IMG/VR virus record: IMGVR_UViG_3300047462_000692
Location: 1 to 27,065 of that record
From: a virus
Length of the DNA stretch: 27,065 nt
Strand: one strand, 5' to 3'
Part shown: positions 1,863 to 18,833 of the stretch, piece after piece
Layout: each line of letters begins with the position of its first letter
How positions within the stretch are numbered: position 1 is the stretch's first letter
The notes under the pieces: model-generated
Seen by the model: only the letters and a program-made list of their open reading frames with translations
The model's database searches: none
Told to the model about the DNA's origin: nothing
Made by a program: the position numbers and the translations under genes

Positions 1863-2798
1863 ATGAATCCCAGTTTGCTGCACGTGGTGACTTGCGTATC
1901 GAATCCTCTGCGCTGGAAAAGCCGAATTCAGCTCTATCGGGATTTCGAACGGCACATGTTGGAGAGCGGTGTGCACCTCACGGTTGTAGAGTGCGCGCTT
2001 GGTGAGCGGCCGTTTGAACTTGGCGAAAATCCGCTGATTGATTTTGTTGGTGTCAGGCATTCAACATTTACGTTCAACAAAGAATGCCTGCTGAATATCG
2101 GGATCCAGGATGTTGTGCGGCGCTACCCTGATGCCCAGTATATTGGGCTTCTTGACGCGGATGTTCGATTTCGAAATCCCGATTGGGCGAATGCCACAGT
2201 GCACGCATTGCAGCGCTTTGAAGTTGTTCAGACCTGGTTTGATTGTTACGATCTTGGGCCAAATGGTCAGCATCTGGAATTGCACCGCTCATTTGGCAAG
2301 CTCTGGCAGGATCAGCAGCCAATCATGCAAGGTCCGAATGCCGCCGGTGGTGCGTACCGCTTCGGCCATCCAGGTTATGCCTGGGCGTGGCGCCGGAGCG
2401 CGCTTGCAGCGGTTGGATTGCTACCGGAGAGCGCGATACTCGGGGCTGCCGATCACCACATGGCAATGGCACTGATAGGCAGAGTTGGCGATTCCATTCC
2501 GGGCAACCTTGAGCCTGGGTATACCGCGCCATTGCTTAAGTGGCAAAATCGCGCATTGCGGCTTGGCATGAATTTGGGTGCGGTGCCTGGCACGATAGAG
2601 CATAGTTTTCATGGTTCGAAGCAGAAGCGCCGTTATGTGGAGCGCTGGGAAATTCTACATAAGTGGAAGTTCGATCCGCAAGCCGACCTTGTAAAAAATG
2701 AATTTGGCGTTGTTGAGCTTGCCGGCAACAAGCCCGGCCTTCGGATGGATATCGAGCGCTATTTTTCGGAGCGGGATGAGGACGCAAACTCGGTCTAG
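1863..2798 (+). CDS. GT-A fold glycosyltransferase, GT2-like
   Basis: A 311-aa protein with ATG 1863 preceded by TTAGGG. The metal-binding DxD-type motif is LLDADV (D98-A-D100). A WAWRRSAL stretch (174-181) and the acceptor-site motif GAADHHMA (194-201) follow, and a C-terminal FHG (249-251) ahead of RRYVERWEIL is where retaining GT-A enzymes place a metal-binding HG pair. There is no membrane segment, so it should act in the cytoplasm. It could transfer a sugar to phage DNA bases, to virion proteins or to a host glycan precursor; the sequence does not decide which. Its place between terS and terL is odd and suggests an acquired moron or a link to packaging of modified DNA. Confidence 0.8.
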   Translation: MNPSLLHVVTCVSNPLRWKSRIQLYRDFERHMLESGVHLTVVECALGERPFELGENPLIDFVGVRHSTFTFNKECLLNIGIQDVVRRYPDAQYIGLLDADVRFRNPDWANATVHALQRFEVVQTWFDCYDLGPNGQHLELHRSFGKLWQDQQPIMQGPNAAGGAYRFGHPGYAWAWRRSALAAVGLLPESAILGAADHHMAMALIGRVGDSIPGNLEPGYTAPLLKWQNRALRLGMNLGAVPGTIEHSFHGSKQKRRYVERWEILHKWKFDPQADLVKNEFGVVELAGNKPGLRMDIERYFSERDEDANSV

Positions 2799-6642: not shown

Positions 6643-7965
6643 ATGGCGATTAATAACTTTCCGATTGCTTTGCAGAGCATTATTCAGCAGAATTTTCTGG
6701 AGCGCGAGTTTCAGACCTCGCTTGAAGCAAAGCTTGGCTTCCGCGCTGTTGCCGACCGGATGGATTTCCCGAACACCATCGGTGAAACGATCACCAAAAC
6801 CCGTGCCGGCTTGCTGCAAGTGAGCACCACGCCGCTGGTTCCGGCGAATAACACGAATTTCGATAATGGTTTGACTTCTCAGACCTGGGGCGTCGAGCAG
6901 TTTACCCTGTCCATCAATGAGTATGCGAACACCATCGATCTGAACACGGTTAACGAGCGCGTGGGATTGGCTGGGCAGTTTTTATTGAATGCATCGCGGC
7001 TTGGGGAACAGGCATTTCGTACCTTGGACACGCTGGCGCTGAACGCGTTGCGGAATACCTATATGGGTGGCAATACTGCCGTAAGGGTCACGCTTGGGAG
7101 CCCCGGAACCGCGGTGCATGTTGACGATATCCGCGGCTTCCAGACCACCTTGAACAACGAGGGGCAGGTTGTTGCCGTTAGCGGGAGCAACTCGGTTCTG
7201 GTGTCGGTCGGGTCTGAGTCCTACACCCTGGTCGGCTCGACGCCAGATGGAACTAATGTTAGTGCAGCGCTGCAGCAGGGCGGCATTTCCGGGACGTTGA
7301 CGTTTTCTGGGAACGTGACCGTCGCCGACGCAACCGCCGGGAATGCGGTTGTATCGGCGATCGCTCCGACGATCCTGCGTCCAAATGGCCGTGCAACCAC
7401 GGGCGCTTTGGTCAGCGGCGATACGTTGCTGATGGTGACGACGATTTTGTCGGCCGCCAGTACGATGCGCGACAACAACGTGCCGGATATAGACGGCGCC
7501 TATAACTGTTATCTATCGAACCGCCAGCTGCAAGGGCTGTTCTCTGATCCGGCATTCCAGCTTTTGTTCCGCGGCGCTTACGGGTCGCAGGAATACCGGC
7601 AGGGAAGCGTATTCGAATTGATGGGCGTTCGCTTCGTTCCGGTCAACAACGTGGTTCTGCCGCAGGTTGTGAGCGGGAATAATGTTTATCGCGCGATTGT
7701 GTGCGGGCAGGGCGCTTTGATCGAGGGCGATTTTGCGGGCCAGGATGCCGAGGATACGCCTGGCAATATTGGCCAGAAGGTTACTGTGGATGGTGTCACC
7801 ATGATCACGCGGGAGCCGATGGACCGTTTGCAGGAAATTATTGCACAGTCCTGGAAATGGATCGGCGGGTTCTGTGTGCCGTCCGACACCACGGCGAATC
7901 CGTCGGTGATTCCGACCGCCAATAATTCGGCGTTCAAGCGCGCGATCGTGATCGAAAGTCTGTAA
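6643..7965 (+). CDS. major capsid protein with insertion domain
   Basis: A 440-aa protein with ATG 6643 behind GAGGA. The N-terminal arm (MAINNFPIALQSIIQQNF) is followed by a helical region (EQAFRTLDTLALNALRN). A Gly/Ser/Thr/Val-rich beta segment at about 172-245 looks like an I-domain inserted in an HK97-type fold. The remaining core includes the LSNRQLQGLFSDPAFQLLF and GVRFVPVNNVVLPQVV segments. The C-terminal region has IIAQSWKWIGGFCVPSD. It would form the icosahedral shell. Position after the scaffold and the two hairpins upstream fit a highly expressed structural gene. No N-terminal propeptide cleavage site is evident. HK97 fold is inferred from layout, not from a search. Confidence 0.88.
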   Translation: MAINNFPIALQSIIQQNFLEREFQTSLEAKLGFRAVADRMDFPNTIGETITKTRAGLLQVSTTPLVPANNTNFDNGLTSQTWGVEQFTLSINEYANTIDLNTVNERVGLAGQFLLNASRLGEQAFRTLDTLALNALRNTYMGGNTAVRVTLGSPGTAVHVDDIRGFQTTLNNEGQVVAVSGSNSVLVSVGSESYTLVGSTPDGTNVSAALQQGGISGTLTFSGNVTVADATAGNAVVSAIAPTILRPNGRATTGALVSGDTLLMVTTILSAASTMRDNNVPDIDGAYNCYLSNRQLQGLFSDPAFQLLFRGAYGSQEYRQGSVFELMGVRFVPVNNVVLPQVVSGNNVYRAIVCGQGALIEGDFAGQDAEDTPGNIGQKVTVDGVTMITREPMDRLQEIIAQSWKWIGGFCVPSDTTANPSVIPTANNSAFKRAIVIESL

Positions 7966-10970: not shown

Positions 10971-11750
10971 ATGACCAATGCCGTTACGATCAATGCGCCG
11001 ATGGTGGCGTCGGTGGGAGTCGCGTTTCCGGTCAACGGTACGGTGAGCCCGGCGGGAGATGCCGTGCAGCTGCAGCTTGATACGCAAACGATCACGCTGC
11101 CGAGCGGTCCGTGGGAAACGGCAACCACAGCGGCGGGCGTGTTTGCGGGGGCAATGGAGATTGTGGCGCCCGGGACCTGGTATGTCTGGGCGTATGATCC
11201 AGTCTCCGGCGCGTCAGCGGTTTCTGCCGCCATCTCCGTGGCGGCGGCTTTTCTAAATGCCGTGGAAGCAATTCCGGTTTCGATTTCCGTGGCGGCGTCG
11301 TTGCTCGGCGGTAGTGCTGCAGGTGAAACACCGGACGAACTGACGATTGCGGCCGCTGCAACCGATACCGATACCGCGTTGGTCGCTCAGAGCGGAAAAG
11401 TGCTTTTCGCGCAACCGTTCTCGGCAATTTGGACATGGATACAAGAGCATTTACCCGGCTATTTGATGCCGCAGGTGACAATTGCGGCCGCTGGAACCGT
11501 CCAGCTCGATAATTCGGCGCATAATCAGCGGATTTTGCTGATTACCGCGGCCGGCGTGACGATCTCGCCGCTTGTGAGTTCGATGGGGCCCGGCTTTATC
11601 TGCGATGTGATTAATGCGTCCGGATCGACTGTGGCCCTTTTGGGACTGGCCACGAATTCGGGTGCTAACACAATTGCTGTCGGTGGTATTGCACGCATTC
11701 TGGCCGCCACGCCGCCAGGTGGATCTTTGACTGTGTACGCGAAACTATGA
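10971..11750 (+). CDS. Ig-like domain protein with fibre-like C-terminus
   Basis: A 259-aa protein. Residues 10-90 form one Ig-like beta-sandwich of the same type that occurs twice in the protein encoded at 13459: compare GTVSPAGDAVQLQL and GTWYVWAYDPVSGASAVSAAISV with the GTVSP...AVQVGLSS and GTFYIWAEQTA...AVSAAL patterns there. Residues about 150-168 (FSAIWTWIQEHLPGYLM) link to a C-terminal beta region (GFICDVINASGSTVALLG, GANTIAVGGIARIL) that resembles fibre or decoration domains. It may decorate the virion or form part of an adhesin. It ends in an ATGA overlap with the esterase gene, so the two are translated together. Confidence 0.6.
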   Translation: MTNAVTINAPMVASVGVAFPVNGTVSPAGDAVQLQLDTQTITLPSGPWETATTAAGVFAGAMEIVAPGTWYVWAYDPVSGASAVSAAISVAAAFLNAVEAIPVSISVAASLLGGSAAGETPDELTIAAAATDTDTALVAQSGKVLFAQPFSAIWTWIQEHLPGYLMPQVTIAAAGTVQLDNSAHNQRILLITAAGVTISPLVSSMGPGFICDVINASGSTVALLGLATNSGANTIAVGGIARILAATPPGGSLTVYAKL

Positions 11751-13165
11751 CGGCCGTCGATATCACGAGTCTCGGACGATTGGTTCTTGCGGCACCGGGA
11801 GCGGTTCTGCAAAGCGACGTTTCAACTGGCGGCGGGTCGGGCGGTGGCGATGGCGGTGGTGGCGCAAGTGGTCTTGCAAACATCACCTTGCTCAGCGGGC
11901 CTGGCCAGAGCAATGCCGGCTATGCGGAGACCCAGGACGGCGCGTTTCTGGCGATGGTTCAAGCGACTTCGTTCTACTTACAGGGAACGGGTACGCCCGC
12001 CGAGCTGACATCCTGGGTGAACGCCGGCCAGGCGGGTACGGAAGTCTCGGGTATTGGCGTGATGGAGATTGTCACTCCCACCTTGTACAATGCAGCCTTC
12101 CTGGCGAATTCCGCCGGTGCGTCGTTTTCCGCGGCAACGGCGGCGGAAGCTAGCCTTGGCACCTGCGGAACCGGGTATTCGGATTATGTGGCTGGATTGA
12201 ACAACACCCAGCTCGGGCAAGTCCAGGCGCTGGTTTCGTATTGGGGAGAGAATGATAGCCTCGAATACGGCCCGGCGGATAAGGCGGTTTATAAGGCGGC
12301 ATTGGCGAACCTGCTGGCACAGGTGAGGGCCATGCTGGGCAGGACGGCAGCTGAACTGCCAATGATTTTTTTTGGCCCGCCTTATGGACTGCTACCGAAT
12401 TACATCACCTATCCGCCGACGTTACGCGAAGCTTGGGCGGAACTGGATGCTGATCCGGCGCAGAATTTTTATTGGGCGGTACGGCAGACTTATGACACGA
12501 TTTCTCGCAATGAAACGTGGAACGCGGTTACGGGTGTTGCGAGCGGCGGCAATACCGATGGCGGCCACAGGAGTGCGACCGATAATGTGACGCTGTTCAA
12601 ACGCGCGGCACTGCCGGCGGCGCGGGCGATATTGATGGCAAACGGCTTGCCGGCTGCGCTGATTCCGGTGTCTCTCGGCTCGGGGCTTGGGCCGTCGATA
12701 ACGGATGCAGCGCTCGTTGGCACGGATCTGACGGTTACGATTACGCATGATGGCGGCGATGACCTGATCGTGCCGCTTCTGGCTAGCCAGGGCGTTGGTT
12801 TCTCGGTCATGGATGGTGGCGACACCGCCGCGCCCGGAAATATCATCCAGGCAACGTCGTGCATTCGAATCGACTCGACCCATCTGCTCGTGACGTTGGC
12901 GCGTGCGCCGGTAAATCCGCATACCGAATGCCGGCTTTTGTACCCTTGGGCGGGAGAATATTGGACTGTGCAACCGGATAGCGAAATTGGCCGGGGTTGC
13001 GCGGTGACGGATAATTTTTCGGTCGTCGCTAAACCAGCGGGTTTCGATATCAATGCGACACTCGGCACGGGCTGGGCGGCCAATATGCCGCTTTGCACAC
13101 CGGTAACCGTTACGGGAACGGGTTCATCCGCGAGCGCGGAATTTGGAATATCACTCAGTTCCTGA
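11747..13165 (+). CDS. SGNH/GDSL carbohydrate esterase-like protein
   Basis: A 472-aa protein coupled by ATGA to the gene before it. A Gly-rich linker (28-39) leads to LLSGPGQSNAGY, with Ser55 in a GQSN block as in sialate O-acetylesterase and CE6-type SGNH hydrolases. SYWGENDSL (164-172) replaces the usual G-x-N-D block, and DGGHRS (271-276) supplies the catalytic Asp/His pair (D271, H274). Residues about 300-472 form a beta-rich C-terminal region, probably for binding or trimer formation. Such an enzyme would remove acetyl groups from capsule or O-antigen during adsorption. There is no signal peptide, as expected for a virion protein. Position far from the tail fibre gene is unusual. Confidence 0.78.
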   Translation: MTAVDITSLGRLVLAAPGAVLQSDVSTGGGSGGGDGGGGASGLANITLLSGPGQSNAGYAETQDGAFLAMVQATSFYLQGTGTPAELTSWVNAGQAGTEVSGIGVMEIVTPTLYNAAFLANSAGASFSAATAAEASLGTCGTGYSDYVAGLNNTQLGQVQALVSYWGENDSLEYGPADKAVYKAALANLLAQVRAMLGRTAAELPMIFFGPPYGLLPNYITYPPTLREAWAELDADPAQNFYWAVRQTYDTISRNETWNAVTGVASGGNTDGGHRSATDNVTLFKRAALPAARAILMANGLPAALIPVSLGSGLGPSITDAALVGTDLTVTITHDGGDDLIVPLLASQGVGFSVMDGGDTAAPGNIIQATSCIRIDSTHLLVTLARAPVNPHTECRLLYPWAGEYWTVQPDSEIGRGCAVTDNFSVVAKPAGFDINATLGTGWAANMPLCTPVTVTGTGSSASAEFGISLSS

Positions 13166-14544: not shown

Positions 14545-16092
14545 ATGACCATTGTACAACAGGGCGCGATCAACACGACCGCGCTGATTGTTCCCGATCT
14601 GTACGTGCAGATCGTTCCGCCGCAAAATCTGCTGCTGAACGGCGTGCCAACCGATGTGCTGGGCGTGGTTGGCACGGCGCCCTGGGGGCCGGTGAATTCG
14701 CCCGTCATTGCGGGCAGCATGAGCGACTTCGCGGCCTCGTTCGGCACGCTTGTCAACCGAAAATATGATCTTGGGACCCAGGTGGCGATTGCGGTGCTGC
14801 AAGGGGCGTCGAATTTTCGATTGGTGCGAGTTACCGACGGCACCGATACGAAAGCTGATATCGTTATTCAGAGCACCTGCCTTACCATCACCGCAAAATA
14901 CACAGGCAGCGCCGGTAATGGGATTGTCGTTACCCTTGCTGCGGGCTCGGCCGCCAATACCACCCAGGCGGTCGTGACCCTGCCGGGCGCGACGCCGGAG
15001 ATTTATAATAATATTGCCGGAACCGGAAACGCGTTCTGGGTCAACCTGGCCGCCGCGATCAATAGCGGCAACAGCGCGTTGCGCGGGCCGTCGCAGCTGG
15101 TCACCGCGGTTGCCGGCGCCGGCACCGCGGCTCCGGCCTTGACGAGTTACACGCTGGCCGGTGGAACCGATGGCGTAACCTCGATTACCACCGCTTCGCT
15201 GATCGGCGTTGACTTCGCGCCGCGCACCGGCATGTATGCGCTGCGGGGGCAAGGTTGCGGTGTCGGCGTGCTTGCGGACCTTGACGATTCCACCTCTTGG
15301 ACGACGCAGGTTGCCTTCGGTCTTTCCGAAGGCGTGTATATGGTGATGACTGGTCCGGCCGGTGATAACATCACCAATGCGGTTTCGACGAAAGCCAATG
15401 TTGGGTTGGATAGTTATGCCGGGAAGCTGATGTTCGGGGATTGGCTGTACTGGTATGATCCGGTAAATGCCGTGACGCGTGCGTGCTCGCCGGCCGCCTT
15501 TGCCGCGGGCCGTCTCGCTAACTTGTCGCCCGAACAGTCATCACTCAACAAGCAAATCTATGGCGTGGTTTCAAGCCAGAAGTCAGGTGCTCCGGGGTCG
15601 CCGACCTATTCCACCTACGCAACCGCCGACCTTTCCGCGTTGCTTGGGGCCGGCATCGACGTGATCTCGAACCCGCAGCCCGGCGGCGCCTATTGGGGCG
15701 TTCGCGGCGGCTTTAACACGTCGTCAAACGCTGTTATCGACGGCGACAATTACACGCGCCTTACCAATTATATCGCTGCGACGCTGTCGGCGGGGATGGG
15801 ACAATATGTGGGGCAATTGGTCAACACGACGCTGTTTCAAAACATCAAGGCGACGCTGCTTTCTTTCCTGAGCGGGATGCTCACTCAGGGGCTGCTGGGT
15901 AGTAGCGATGGAACACTGCCTTTCGCGGTCGTTTGCGATACCACAAATAACCCGCTTAGCCGCACTGCGCTCGGCTATGTTCAGGCTGATGTGCAAGTGC
16001 AATATCAGGCGATCAACGAGAAATTCATCGTCAACGTGCAGGGCGGCCAGTCCGTGGTGGTTTCGCAGACCGCGACCATTCCGCAGCAGTAA
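14545..16092 (+). CDS. contractile tail sheath protein
   Basis: A 515-aa protein with ATG 14545 behind AAAGGAATGA. The N-terminus (PDLYVQIVPPQNLLLNGVP, VVGTAPWGPVN) is the conserved sheath start of Mu gpL/P2 FI-like proteins. The central TLAGGTDGV followed by ALRGQGCGVGVLADL and a C-terminal region with the conserved VIDGDNYTRLTNYIAATL and NPLSRTALGYVQADVQVQYQ complete the family pattern. It polymerises around the tube and contracts at infection. This fixes the phage as a myovirus type. An accessory beta domain (about 105-205) is inserted after the N-terminal region, as is common. Confidence 0.95.
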   Translation: MTIVQQGAINTTALIVPDLYVQIVPPQNLLLNGVPTDVLGVVGTAPWGPVNSPVIAGSMSDFAASFGTLVNRKYDLGTQVAIAVLQGASNFRLVRVTDGTDTKADIVIQSTCLTITAKYTGSAGNGIVVTLAAGSAANTTQAVVTLPGATPEIYNNIAGTGNAFWVNLAAAINSGNSALRGPSQLVTAVAGAGTAAPALTSYTLAGGTDGVTSITTASLIGVDFAPRTGMYALRGQGCGVGVLADLDDSTSWTTQVAFGLSEGVYMVMTGPAGDNITNAVSTKANVGLDSYAGKLMFGDWLYWYDPVNAVTRACSPAAFAAGRLANLSPEQSSLNKQIYGVVSSQKSGAPGSPTYSTYATADLSALLGAGIDVISNPQPGGAYWGVRGGFNTSSNAVIDGDNYTRLTNYIAATLSAGMGQYVGQLVNTTLFQNIKATLLSFLSGMLTQGLLGSSDGTLPFAVVCDTTNNPLSRTALGYVQADVQVQYQAINEKFIVNVQGGQSVVVSQTATIPQQ

Positions 16093-16165: not shown

Positions 16166-16588
16166 ATGTCGTCATATACCATCGGTGAGGATGTTCGTGC
16201 TCAGATCATCGGGCCCTACGGTCCGATCACCGCCCCCCAGCAAACCTTGATTTCGGTTTCTCCTAATCAGACGGTTCAGTCGTTCCAGGATCTGACAGGT
16301 ACGACGAATTCGCGGACGGTCGTCAGGGGCGTGTCTGGCAAGATCACCTTTACGCGAACCAATCCGGACCTCGAAAATCTCGCGGCGCAAATGAGCCAGA
16401 ACTGGAAGGCGGGCGTGCCGATCCCCGGGGGCAGTTTCACTTACACCATCAGTGAGCTGAATGGTACCGAAACCACGGTTCACCTAAGTCCGGTTTCATG
16501 GATGATTACCAAAATAGGCGACGCGACGCCGGGTAAGCCGGTTTTGCAGGAGCTTAGCTTTATCGGTGACGGATACCAGACCGTATGA
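16166..16588 (+). CDS. tail tube protein
   Basis: ATG 16166 is preferred (AAGGAA at good spacing) over the frame start at 16124. The 140-aa product is beta-rich: YTIGEDVRAQIIGPYGPIT, then VRGVSGKITFTRTNPDLENL and SWMITKIGDATPGKPVLQEL, with a typical ending LSFIGDGYQTV. It would form the stacked hexameric tube inside the sheath. Position directly after the sheath and before the assembly chaperone is diagnostic. It joins the chaperone gene by an ATGA overlap. Confidence 0.87.
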   Translation: MSSYTIGEDVRAQIIGPYGPITAPQQTLISVSPNQTVQSFQDLTGTTNSRTVVRGVSGKITFTRTNPDLENLAAQMSQNWKAGVPIPGGSFTYTISELNGTETTVHLSPVSWMITKIGDATPGKPVLQELSFIGDGYQTV

Positions 16589-17145
16589 TCGAGATCACGC
16601 TGAAGGATGGCCGTGTTCTTGGCATTGAGGCGGTCACGCCGGTGGAATCCATGCGACTAGCGGAGGGTACCCGCGAGCTGAGCGGCAATCGTGGCTGGTG
16701 CGCAATGGCCCTCGTCGCTGCGTCCATTCGTAGCATTGGCGGGATTCCGCGACCTTTTCCCACCCATAAGAAACATATCGAGGCGCTGTTAAAGGATTTG
16801 AACGAGGACGACGTTGCGGACATCCGTGCTGCGAGCGGGAGGGCGAAATCGGAGCCGGTCGAGATCGAATTCAAGTCTCTGTCGCCCTATGAGCTTCTGA
16901 AAGTGTATGAATTCGCTGGCGAGTTCAATGATGTTCGGGGCTGGGTCGGGCCGGCGACGATTGTGGCCTCGGTAAGAAAAATTGGCGATAGGGTAGTGAA
17001 CTTTCCGGAATGCCAGGCTGATTTGATCGCGCTGGTAACCGAGCTCGGGATGGCGGGGTTTACGGCGGCGACCGCCAGGATGAATGAGGCACTGGACGCA
17101 GCCGATTCCAGAGCCAAAGTTTTGGAGACGGCAGCAAAAAACTGA
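16585..17145 (+). CDS. tail assembly chaperone, short (G-like) form, duplicated domain
   Basis: A 186-aa protein coupled by ATGA to the tube gene. Chaperones of this type hold the tape-measure protein while tube subunits assemble around it. The protein is a tandem repeat: TPVES (18-22) matches SPYEL (100-104), RGWCAMALVAASIRSIG (36-52) matches RGWVGPATIVASVRKIG (118-134), and FPTHKKHIEALL (58-69) matches FPECQADLIALV (140-151). All pairs are offset by exactly 82 residues. Usual chaperones of this class carry one such domain. The stop lies right after a slippery heptamer, so a longer form is expected. Confidence 0.82.
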   Translation: MIEITLKDGRVLGIEAVTPVESMRLAEGTRELSGNRGWCAMALVAASIRSIGGIPRPFPTHKKHIEALLKDLNEDDVADIRAASGRAKSEPVEIEFKSLSPYELLKVYEFAGEFNDVRGWVGPATIVASVRKIGDRVVNFPECQADLIALVTELGMAGFTAATARMNEALDAADSRAKVLETAAKN

Positions 17146-17330
17146 GTAGCCGAGCGTTTTTTGAGGACGCGGTTCTACTGGTAATGAACGGCGCGGCTGC
17201 CAATGTGGAAGCCGCGCTTGCCATGTCCGATGTTTGGCGCTCGGCCACCGTTTTTGCAATCAAAAAAATTGAAACGCGGCGACGCCGTGAAATTGTGGCG
17301 AATATTGTTGAGGCGCTTAGCGGAAGGTAA
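16585..17330 (+). CDS. tail assembly chaperone, -1 frameshift (GT-like) fusion
   Basis: A ribosome slipping back by one at 17136-17142 leaves the short frame just before its TGA and reads 62 more codons (17142-17327) to TAA at 17328-17330, giving about 248 aa. The extension begins LSSRAFFEDAVLLVMNGAAA, then NVEAALAMSDVWRSATVFAI, and ends in a basic helix with KKIETRRRRE. It has no start of its own near the junction and fits the T-domain of G/GT pairs, which recruits tube subunits. Place (between tube and tape measure), motif and open extension all agree. The frameshift itself is inferred; no product has been seen. Confidence 0.8.
17136..17142 (+). promoter_or_regulatory. -1 programmed ribosomal frameshift site A AAA AAC
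   Basis: In the chaperone frame the last codons are GCA AAA AAC TGA. The heptamer A AAA AAC has the X XXY YYZ form and lies immediately before the zero-frame stop. No stem sits at the usual 5-9 nt distance. A strong 8-bp stem, GCGCGGCT (17191-17198) with AGCCGCGC (17210-17217), lies about 48 nt downstream. Confidence 0.8.
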
Positions 17331-17393: not shown

Positions 17394-18833
17394 ATGATGG
17401 GTTATGATGTCGGCGCCCGCTTTCGTCCCGATGAGGAGCCGACCGGATTATTTGACGGTACCGATGCCGCGATCCCTTTGGTACAAAGCCTGGTCGATGA
17501 CGTTTTTGCATCGAGCGCCAGGCTTCCTCGTATGGTTCCCGATGCCACCGACAATGTGTCGGACTTCATTGGCGTATTGGGCGATGCGGCGGAGTCGGCG
17601 GGTAAGATGCACGTTGCAGGTGGCGTAAGCGGAAGCGCTAATAGTGACGTCGCATCGAACACAGCAATATCCATCCCCGCAAATCGCGAGCAGCGCGCTG
17701 GGTGGGACCCCATGTCGGCGATCTTTACAGCACGGTTCGCCGGAGGCGTGATGGCGGGTGGAGCCGGAGGAAGGATCGGGCCATCTGCGCTCGACTACGG
17801 CGATCGATTGTTGCCGGATGCTACAGTGAAAGTTTTGGAGGGTGCTGCTGGGCTCGAAGGCTTGGATCAGACTCACGATTTCAGGCAACGTGGTGCGGAG
17901 CTCGAGTCGATCCAGCGGAACGCTGGACGCTGGGATTTCCCAAGTGAGAGCGATTTCGATGGCCGCATGCATGGCAATCCATTGGCGACGTTCGAGGATT
18001 TGGACGCGAAGAGCAATGCTGACTTTGGCGAAGGCATTGAACCCCGGGATGCGCGCGTCTTGGCGGCTCTAACCGGTAGCGTTCCAACCCGGCCGGACGA
18101 AGCGGCAGTGGAAAATGGGGCGACGCTCGAGCAAAATAATGAGCAACTGTTCGGGCTCGGCTATGGGATTGAGCGAGCCTCGTCGAAAGGTGAGACCGAG
18201 GCCGTCCGTGATTCGATTGAGAAGCAAAAATACCCAACAGACCCAGCGGATTTCAGTGGCCCCGAAGGTGAGTTCTATCCGTTTATTCGCAAAGGACTTG
18301 GCGGTGACGGGATACAGGATTTCGCCGTGCACGATTTCTTGCGACGAGCAGGGAACGGCAAACAAATTTTTGCGGTTGGTACGCCAAACGCTCGGACCAT
18401 GATGCTGGCGCCCTCGCGTGCAGCTTCAGACGGCGATGAAACGCCGAGCGTGAATAGGATACCGGATTTTTCTGGACTGTGGGGAATGTTACGGCATGCG
18501 GAACGGATATTGCCGAAACCTAGCTTGACCGAAGCGGCTGATGACGGGCAGGCTGCGGCGAACGAATTCGAAACGAGACCAAGCCACTTGCTCGATATGC
18601 TGAACAAGTTGGTCGCAACCGGCCTTGCCAGTCATCGCCAGAACGATGATGCGCGTATGTCGGACGAAAAGCTTGCTGCAGCCGGCGGCAGGAGCGGGCC
18701 GACTGGGCATCGGAATGATCCGATCTATACCGTTGCGGTCAGTTCGATGACCGGCACGCTTATGCCTTTGGTGCCAACGCCTGGCAGCAGCACGCGCAGT
18801 CCGCCGATACCGGGACAAAGGAATCTGCCATGA
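17394..18833 (+). CDS. tape-measure-position protein, atypical
   Basis: A 479-aa protein (ATG 17394, GGAG 10 nt upstream; ATG 17397 is possible). By position after the chaperone and before hub proteins it should be the tail tape measure. At about 0.15 nm per residue it would set a tail near 70 nm. Yet it lacks the usual long hydrophobic helices: most of it is acidic, Gly/Asp/Arg-rich and probably disordered, with one modest hydrophobic patch (IFTARFAGGVMAGGAGG) and a Pro-rich C-terminus. The segment after residue 270 (PEGEFYPFIRKGLGGDGIQD) is more ordered. It may be a diverged tape measure or another baseplate-associated protein. It ends in ATGA with the next gene. Confidence 0.5.
   Translation: MMGYDVGARFRPDEEPTGLFDGTDAAIPLVQSLVDDVFASSARLPRMVPDATDNVSDFIGVLGDAAESAGKMHVAGGVSGSANSDVASNTAISIPANREQRAGWDPMSAIFTARFAGGVMAGGAGGRIGPSALDYGDRLLPDATVKVLEGAAGLEGLDQTHDFRQRGAELESIQRNAGRWDFPSESDFDGRMHGNPLATFEDLDAKSNADFGEGIEPRDARVLAALTGSVPTRPDEAAVENGATLEQNNEQLFGLGYGIERASSKGETEAVRDSIEKQKYPTDPADFSGPEGEFYPFIRKGLGGDGIQDFAVHDFLRRAGNGKQIFAVGTPNARTMMLAPSRAASDGDETPSVNRIPDFSGLWGMLRHAERILPKPSLTEAADDGQAAANEFETRPSHLLDMLNKLVATGLASHRQNDDARMSDEKLAAAGGRSGPTGHRNDPIYTVAVSSMTGTLMPLVPTPGSSTRSPPIPGQRNLP

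Follow-up and report, generated by a model that had tools for sequence, protein, structure and literature searches.

The window analysed here is the whole 27,065-base stretch of the virus record IMGVR_UViG_3300047462_000692 (IMG/VR), which carries a contractile-tail module. Within this module lies an open reading frame (ORF) that we assign to a putative tail assembly chaperone (TAC), and the 3′ end of the ORF reads GCA AAA AAC TGA (Table 1). The last two sense codons and the A that precedes them make up a slippery heptamer, and the −1 frame stays open from there. An earlier sequence-only reading of the window had described the heptamer in front of the stop and 62 open codons up to a TAA, and both are recovered when the sequence is read again. 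It had also proposed that a programmed −1 frameshift joins the TAC to this extension. The proposal is supported by gene order, by 133 conserved sites, by selection on the extension, and by a conserved stem at the right distance; the locus very probably makes two TACs from one gene via −1 ribosomal slippage on A AAA AAC. Computed from the sequence, the predicted fusion comprises 248 residues with a mass of 26.84 kDa, which matches the long product of roughly 27 kDa that had been anticipated, and the predicted short form has a mass of 20.07 kDa.

Table 1 Features of the TAC locus and of other parts of the window
Feature	Position	Strand	Description
TAC ORF, 0-frame product	16585-17145	+	186 aa, 20.07 kDa; between sheath (phrog_23) and baseplate genes
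GGAG, Shine-Dalgarno-like	17124-17127	+	8 nt upstream of heptamer; 7/7 window-clade loci
Slippery heptamer A AAA AAC	17136-17142	+	correct register; TGA 17143-17145 comes next
−1 frame extension	17142-17330	+	62 codons, then TAA 17328-17330
Predicted outer stem, 5′ arm	17149-17158	+	6 nt past heptamer; 12 nt from first base of P-site codon AAA
Predicted outer stem, 3′ arm	17236-17245	+	10 pairs with 17149-17158; pair probability about 1.0 in 7/7 folded members
Predicted middle helix	17165-17173 with 17220-17228	+	same rod-like structure, nested in outer stem
Predicted inner apical hairpin	17190-17218	+	nested in outer stem; predicted in 6/7 clade members
Local AGCCG/CGGCT stem	17148-17152 with 17194-17198		seen when just 75 nt of the window are folded
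Tail sheath	14545-16092		phrog_23
Product at expected tape measure position	17394-18833		479 aa
ORF between terminase genes	1863-2798		311 aa
Structural-region protein	11747-13165

A search by the TAC yields three near relatives. A search by the sheath, with the sequences of the window, L003, and Komagataeibacter phage phiKX1 aligned, yields 80 loci from bacterial genomes, mainly of Acetobacteraceae and other Rhodospirillales, and 80 loci from IMG/VR. An iterated profile detects a TAC at 151 loci, of which the window is one; the 15 sheath loci without a TAC end before or within the gene. Once duplicates are removed, 133 distinct sites are left, including 125 of a main family and 7 of the window clade, whose nine members are the window, L002, L003, L004, L006, L088, L091, L284, and L289.

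An in-frame heptamer (A AAA AAC or G GGA AAC/T) is present at the end of the TAC gene in 149 of the 151 loci, located directly, 3 or 18 nucleotides (nt) before the stop. The two loci without it are L153, whose contig stops at this point, and L034, whose site is degenerate. The sequence-only reading had named relatives without heptamer and extension as the pattern that would speak against a frameshift; the relatives show the opposite, with the heptamer retained as above and the −1 frame open wherever it was followed. The heptamer is A AAA AAC at 7/7 distinct sites of the window clade, and at the 125 main-family sites it is G GGA AAC (111), A AAA AAC (12), or G GGA AAT (2). Its last base is C or T at 133/133 sites and never G. 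E. coli, with its single tRNA for lysine, slips more readily on A AAA AAG (PMC5009743). The Acidocella genome of L008 encodes tRNA-Lys(CUU), tRNA-Lys(UUU), and tRNA-Asn(GUU). Because both lysine tRNAs are present, AAG would be a poorer slip choice in this host, as judged from this one genome.

The run of six A in the window is also the kind of sequence on which RNA polymerase could slip, in which case the fusion would be made by transcriptional slippage. However, G GGA AAC, the heptamer of 111/125 main-family loci, contains no long homopolymer, and a folded RNA is conserved at the distance of the ribosome entry site. On these two grounds transcriptional slippage is rejected; its probability is negligible.

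The −1 frame has no stop over the first 40 codons at 132/132 distinct sites, and frame 0 has a stop at 132/132. For the window clade, the −1 frame has a ratio of nonsynonymous to synonymous polymorphism (pN/pS) of 0.28, compared with 1.41 and 1.58 in the other two frames. The main family has 0.19 in the −1 frame, and across both groups the other two frames give 1.4-2.2. Codon conservation in relatives, the check that the sequence-only reading had suggested, thus reveals purifying selection in the −1 frame alone. An AlphaFold2 model of the extension (46 sequences) consists of three helices with a mean predicted local distance difference test score (pLDDT) of 93.9. The extension finds no counterpart in Pfam or PHROG at an expectation value (E) of 0.001, as might be the case for a decayed or chance open frame, but purifying selection, conservation over 132 loci, and the confident predicted fold stand against such an origin. 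It is contradicted by pN/pS and is rejected as practically without likelihood.

When 46 extensions are aligned, those of the window clade can be placed against those of the main family once an insertion of two residues is allowed, and residues G17 and R33 are invariant in both groups. BLASTP detects no pairwise similarity between the extensions of the window and phiKX1. Since the two groups can be aligned and have the invariant G17 and R33 in common, their extensions are probably homologous.

PhiKX1 (LC644975) resembles the window in having GCA AAA AAC TGA, a −1 extension, and a stem (GGCACCCC/GGGGTGCC). In contrast to the window, its TAC has a single domain, and the two frames are annotated as two genes, PhiKX1_580/590; the word "frameshift" is nowhere used in the phiKX1 genome paper, from which the phage is known to be inducible (PMC8566455). 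As this annotation implies, the extension could be a separate small gene, translated by re-initiation or internal initiation. Candidate starts exist, namely an ATG at 17184 in the −1 frame of the window and a GTG at codon 17 in 125/125 main-family loci. However, just 12/125 main-family loci have an ATG inside the first 25 codons, the invariant GTG sits within the stem described below, the codons ahead of any candidate start are conserved, and a separate gene gives the invariant heptamer no reason. Re-initiation is rejected in view of the few ATGs and the conserved codons before candidate starts, and a separate gene is a very improbable explanation overall. The statement of the sequence-only reading that the extension has no start of its own is nearly right: it holds for the 113/125 main-family relatives without an ATG within 25 codons, and needs amending for the window, where the ATG at 17184 is present, with no Shine-Dalgarno sequence seen upstream.

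In the main family, a predicted stem of 9-10 bp starts 5 nt past the heptamer, with CGGCACCCC pairing with GGGGTGCCG. The arms comprise three codons each, in register, such that R-H-P pairs with G-V-P. These codons are nearly frozen at synonymous sites: the glycine codon is GGG in 118/124 cases (background 0.31), the valine codon is GTG in 125/125 (background 0.48), and the histidine codon is CAC in 119/124 (background 0.45). When the sequences are shuffled with protein and codons kept, 30/30 sampled main-family loci fall below a z of −1.5 (mean z −3.1). In addition, when IMG/VR is scanned by the RNA motif alone, with no protein used, a TAC reads into the motif in 98 of the 118 matches listed. 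One locus, L085, keeps the stem with its register moved by one base. Covariation of all column pairs in an ungapped alignment indicates no clear further helix or pseudoknot. RNAalifold gives a weak consensus (−2.1 kcal/mol) with both clades mixed, presumably owing to a difference in fold between them.

A separate observation concerns the contig L191, where the upstream ORF fails the TAC profile, yet G GGA AAC is present with a stop next to it and a stem of the same kind. Its −1 extension looks different, and the ORF may encode an unrelated TAC whose signal arose by convergence.

The local stem of the main family is not present in the window clade. There, a long-range outer stem is predicted, in L284 and L289 as well, and a middle helix and an apical hairpin are nested in it to form a rod. 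The apical hairpin is the stem (17191-17217) that the sequence-only reading had taken for the sole strong one, about 48 nt downstream of the heptamer; this view has to be given up, as the outer stem begins 6 nt past the heptamer. For the hairpins of dnaX and HIV, the distance at which the ribosome is hindered is 11-12 nt (PMC7282821). Synonymous shuffles give z values of −1.3 to −4.1 for the window clade, and a dinucleotide shuffle of the window gives −3.67. Third positions are invariant at 4/5 sites in the stem versus 8/51 elsewhere (Fisher p 0.006). When just 75 nt of the window are folded, the local AGCCG/CGGCT stem replaces the long-range stem.

The Shine-Dalgarno-like GGAG upstream of the heptamer is another mark of the window clade; GGAG or AGGA occurs in that upstream range in just 9/125 main-family loci. 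In E. coli, −1 shifts are promoted by Shine-Dalgarno-like elements that lie 8-11 nt upstream (PMC6321510). By analogy with dnaX, the GGAG may possibly act as a −1 stimulator.

A frameshift could also be real and stimulated mainly by pausing at the adjacent stop, with RNA structure secondary. The stop adjoins the heptamer in 107/133 distinct sites and follows 3 nt later in 2. However, it lies 18 nt later in 24/133 sites that keep the heptamer and the stem, and all three stop codons occur. Because these 24 sites keep both elements, the nearby stop, which the sequence-only reading had offered as a stimulator, does not qualify as the common one, and we consider stop-codon pausing unlikely as the main stimulus.

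The locus has three of the features by which a −1 frameshift signal is recognized: an in-frame X XXY YYZ heptamer, a predicted conserved stem within about 5-9 nt, and a selected −1 coding extension. Most ribosomes would stop at TGA and yield the 186-residue TAC. A minority, hindered by RNA structure where the mRNA enters, would shift back by one base on A AAA AAC and read 62 more codons to yield the 248-residue fusion. On the model of lambda gpG/gpGT, the tape measure protein would be coated by the short form, and the tube protein would be recruited by the extension. In vivo slippage, its rate, and this division of labour in tail assembly are what we infer.

Several points weigh against ribosomal frameshifting at a TAC gene as set out here. 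The assignment as a TAC is argued from gene order and the frameshift, with neither a Pfam family nor a significant fold match. The binomial p values for codon freezing in the main-family stem take no account of shared ancestry. Covariation counts on the window-clade structure are not above those of shuffles, since eight of the ten pairs in the outer stem are invariant. Finally, in L034, a prophage in a metagenome-assembled genome, the extension is kept while the heptamer and the 5′ arm are degenerate (7310-7410), which may reflect decay or an assembly error.

The gene order of the module is sheath, putative tube gene, TAC ORF, and baseplate genes, the last including a Baseplate_J protein. The putative tube gene falls in phrog_12993, of unknown function, and is labelled by position alone. 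The window TAC falls in phrog_20383, a PHROG of unknown function as well, and has no match in a Pfam search; 1/42 TAC members matches Phage_TAC_15, weakly (E 0.21). Foldseek with the TAC lists several tail assembly chaperones, none of them significant, and none from the PDB. PHROG and Pfam searches of the TAC and of the extension, as well as Foldseek searches, give no significant hit to a named family, and tblastn with the TACs of the window and L021 finds nothing in GenBank phages.

The TAC of the window clade is a tandem duplication of one domain of about 80 residues (residues 1-84 and about 85-172), which is present as a single copy in the main family. In hhalign the two halves match each other with a probability of 95% (E 2.8e-8; 65 columns, 28% identity), and each of them also matches the TACs of relatives that have a single domain. 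In accordance, the AlphaFold2 model of the TAC has a repeated strand-helix pattern (pLDDT 90.6). One tentative and rather doubtful scenario is that, alongside this duplication, the window clade rebuilt its stimulator as a rod of three nested helices competing with a local stem, a competition that could adjust how much long chaperone is made relative to the short one.

Frameshifting in TAC genes is already known in many phages; new here are the strength of its conservation in this family and the hairpins formed by the RNA next to the slip site, and the replaced stimulator and the duplicated chaperone of the window clade are the points of interest. The window locus appears to be the same kind of −1 TAC frameshift as lambda gpG/gpGT, with all testable features found at the sequence level. 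Xu, Hendrix and Duda reportedly generalised the lambda frameshift in 2004. The lambda heptamer is G GGA AAG, which the G GGA AAC of the relatives resembles. Unlike lambda, the window has a contractile tail and a TAC whose sequence shows no homology to a named TAC family; the slippery site ends with C or T and never G, the stop is mostly adjacent, and the downstream stem is strongly conserved in the window's family. P2 gpE/gpE′, encoded in the FETUD operon, likewise belongs to a contractile tail, with a −1 shift and a TAC downstream of sheath and tube. Its heptamer differs from that of the window, no sequence relation is found, and neither the TAC nor the extension of the window has a Pfam match.

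E. coli dnaX has in common with the window clade an A6 heptamer, an upstream Shine-Dalgarno-like element, a spacer of about 5 nt, and a stem of about 10 bp located 11-12 nt from the P-site codon. However, dnaX combines A AAA AAG with a local hairpin, whereas the window clade combines A AAA AAC with a long-range stem and nested hairpins, and the shift shortens the dnaX product but lengthens that of the window.

Taken in this way, the locus adds a large and poorly annotated group, the contractile-tailed phages of Acetobacteraceae, to those with a tail-chaperone frameshift; in these phages, annotation can easily miss the extension or wrongly list it as a gene of its own. More than 100 natural variants with the frameshift stem in nearly fixed codons, together with a clade in which the stem is replaced, provide material to test the long:short ratio.

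The product at the expected tape measure position has no Pfam or PHROG match and is labelled by position alone; its counterpart has 535 residues in L003 and 742 residues in phiKX1. Elsewhere in the window, the ORF between the terminase genes has a glycosyltransferase-like reading, with no Pfam match at 0.01, and the structural-region protein weakly matches sialic-acid acetylesterases (SASA) at E 0.008, a hit that falls short of the Pfam cut-off.
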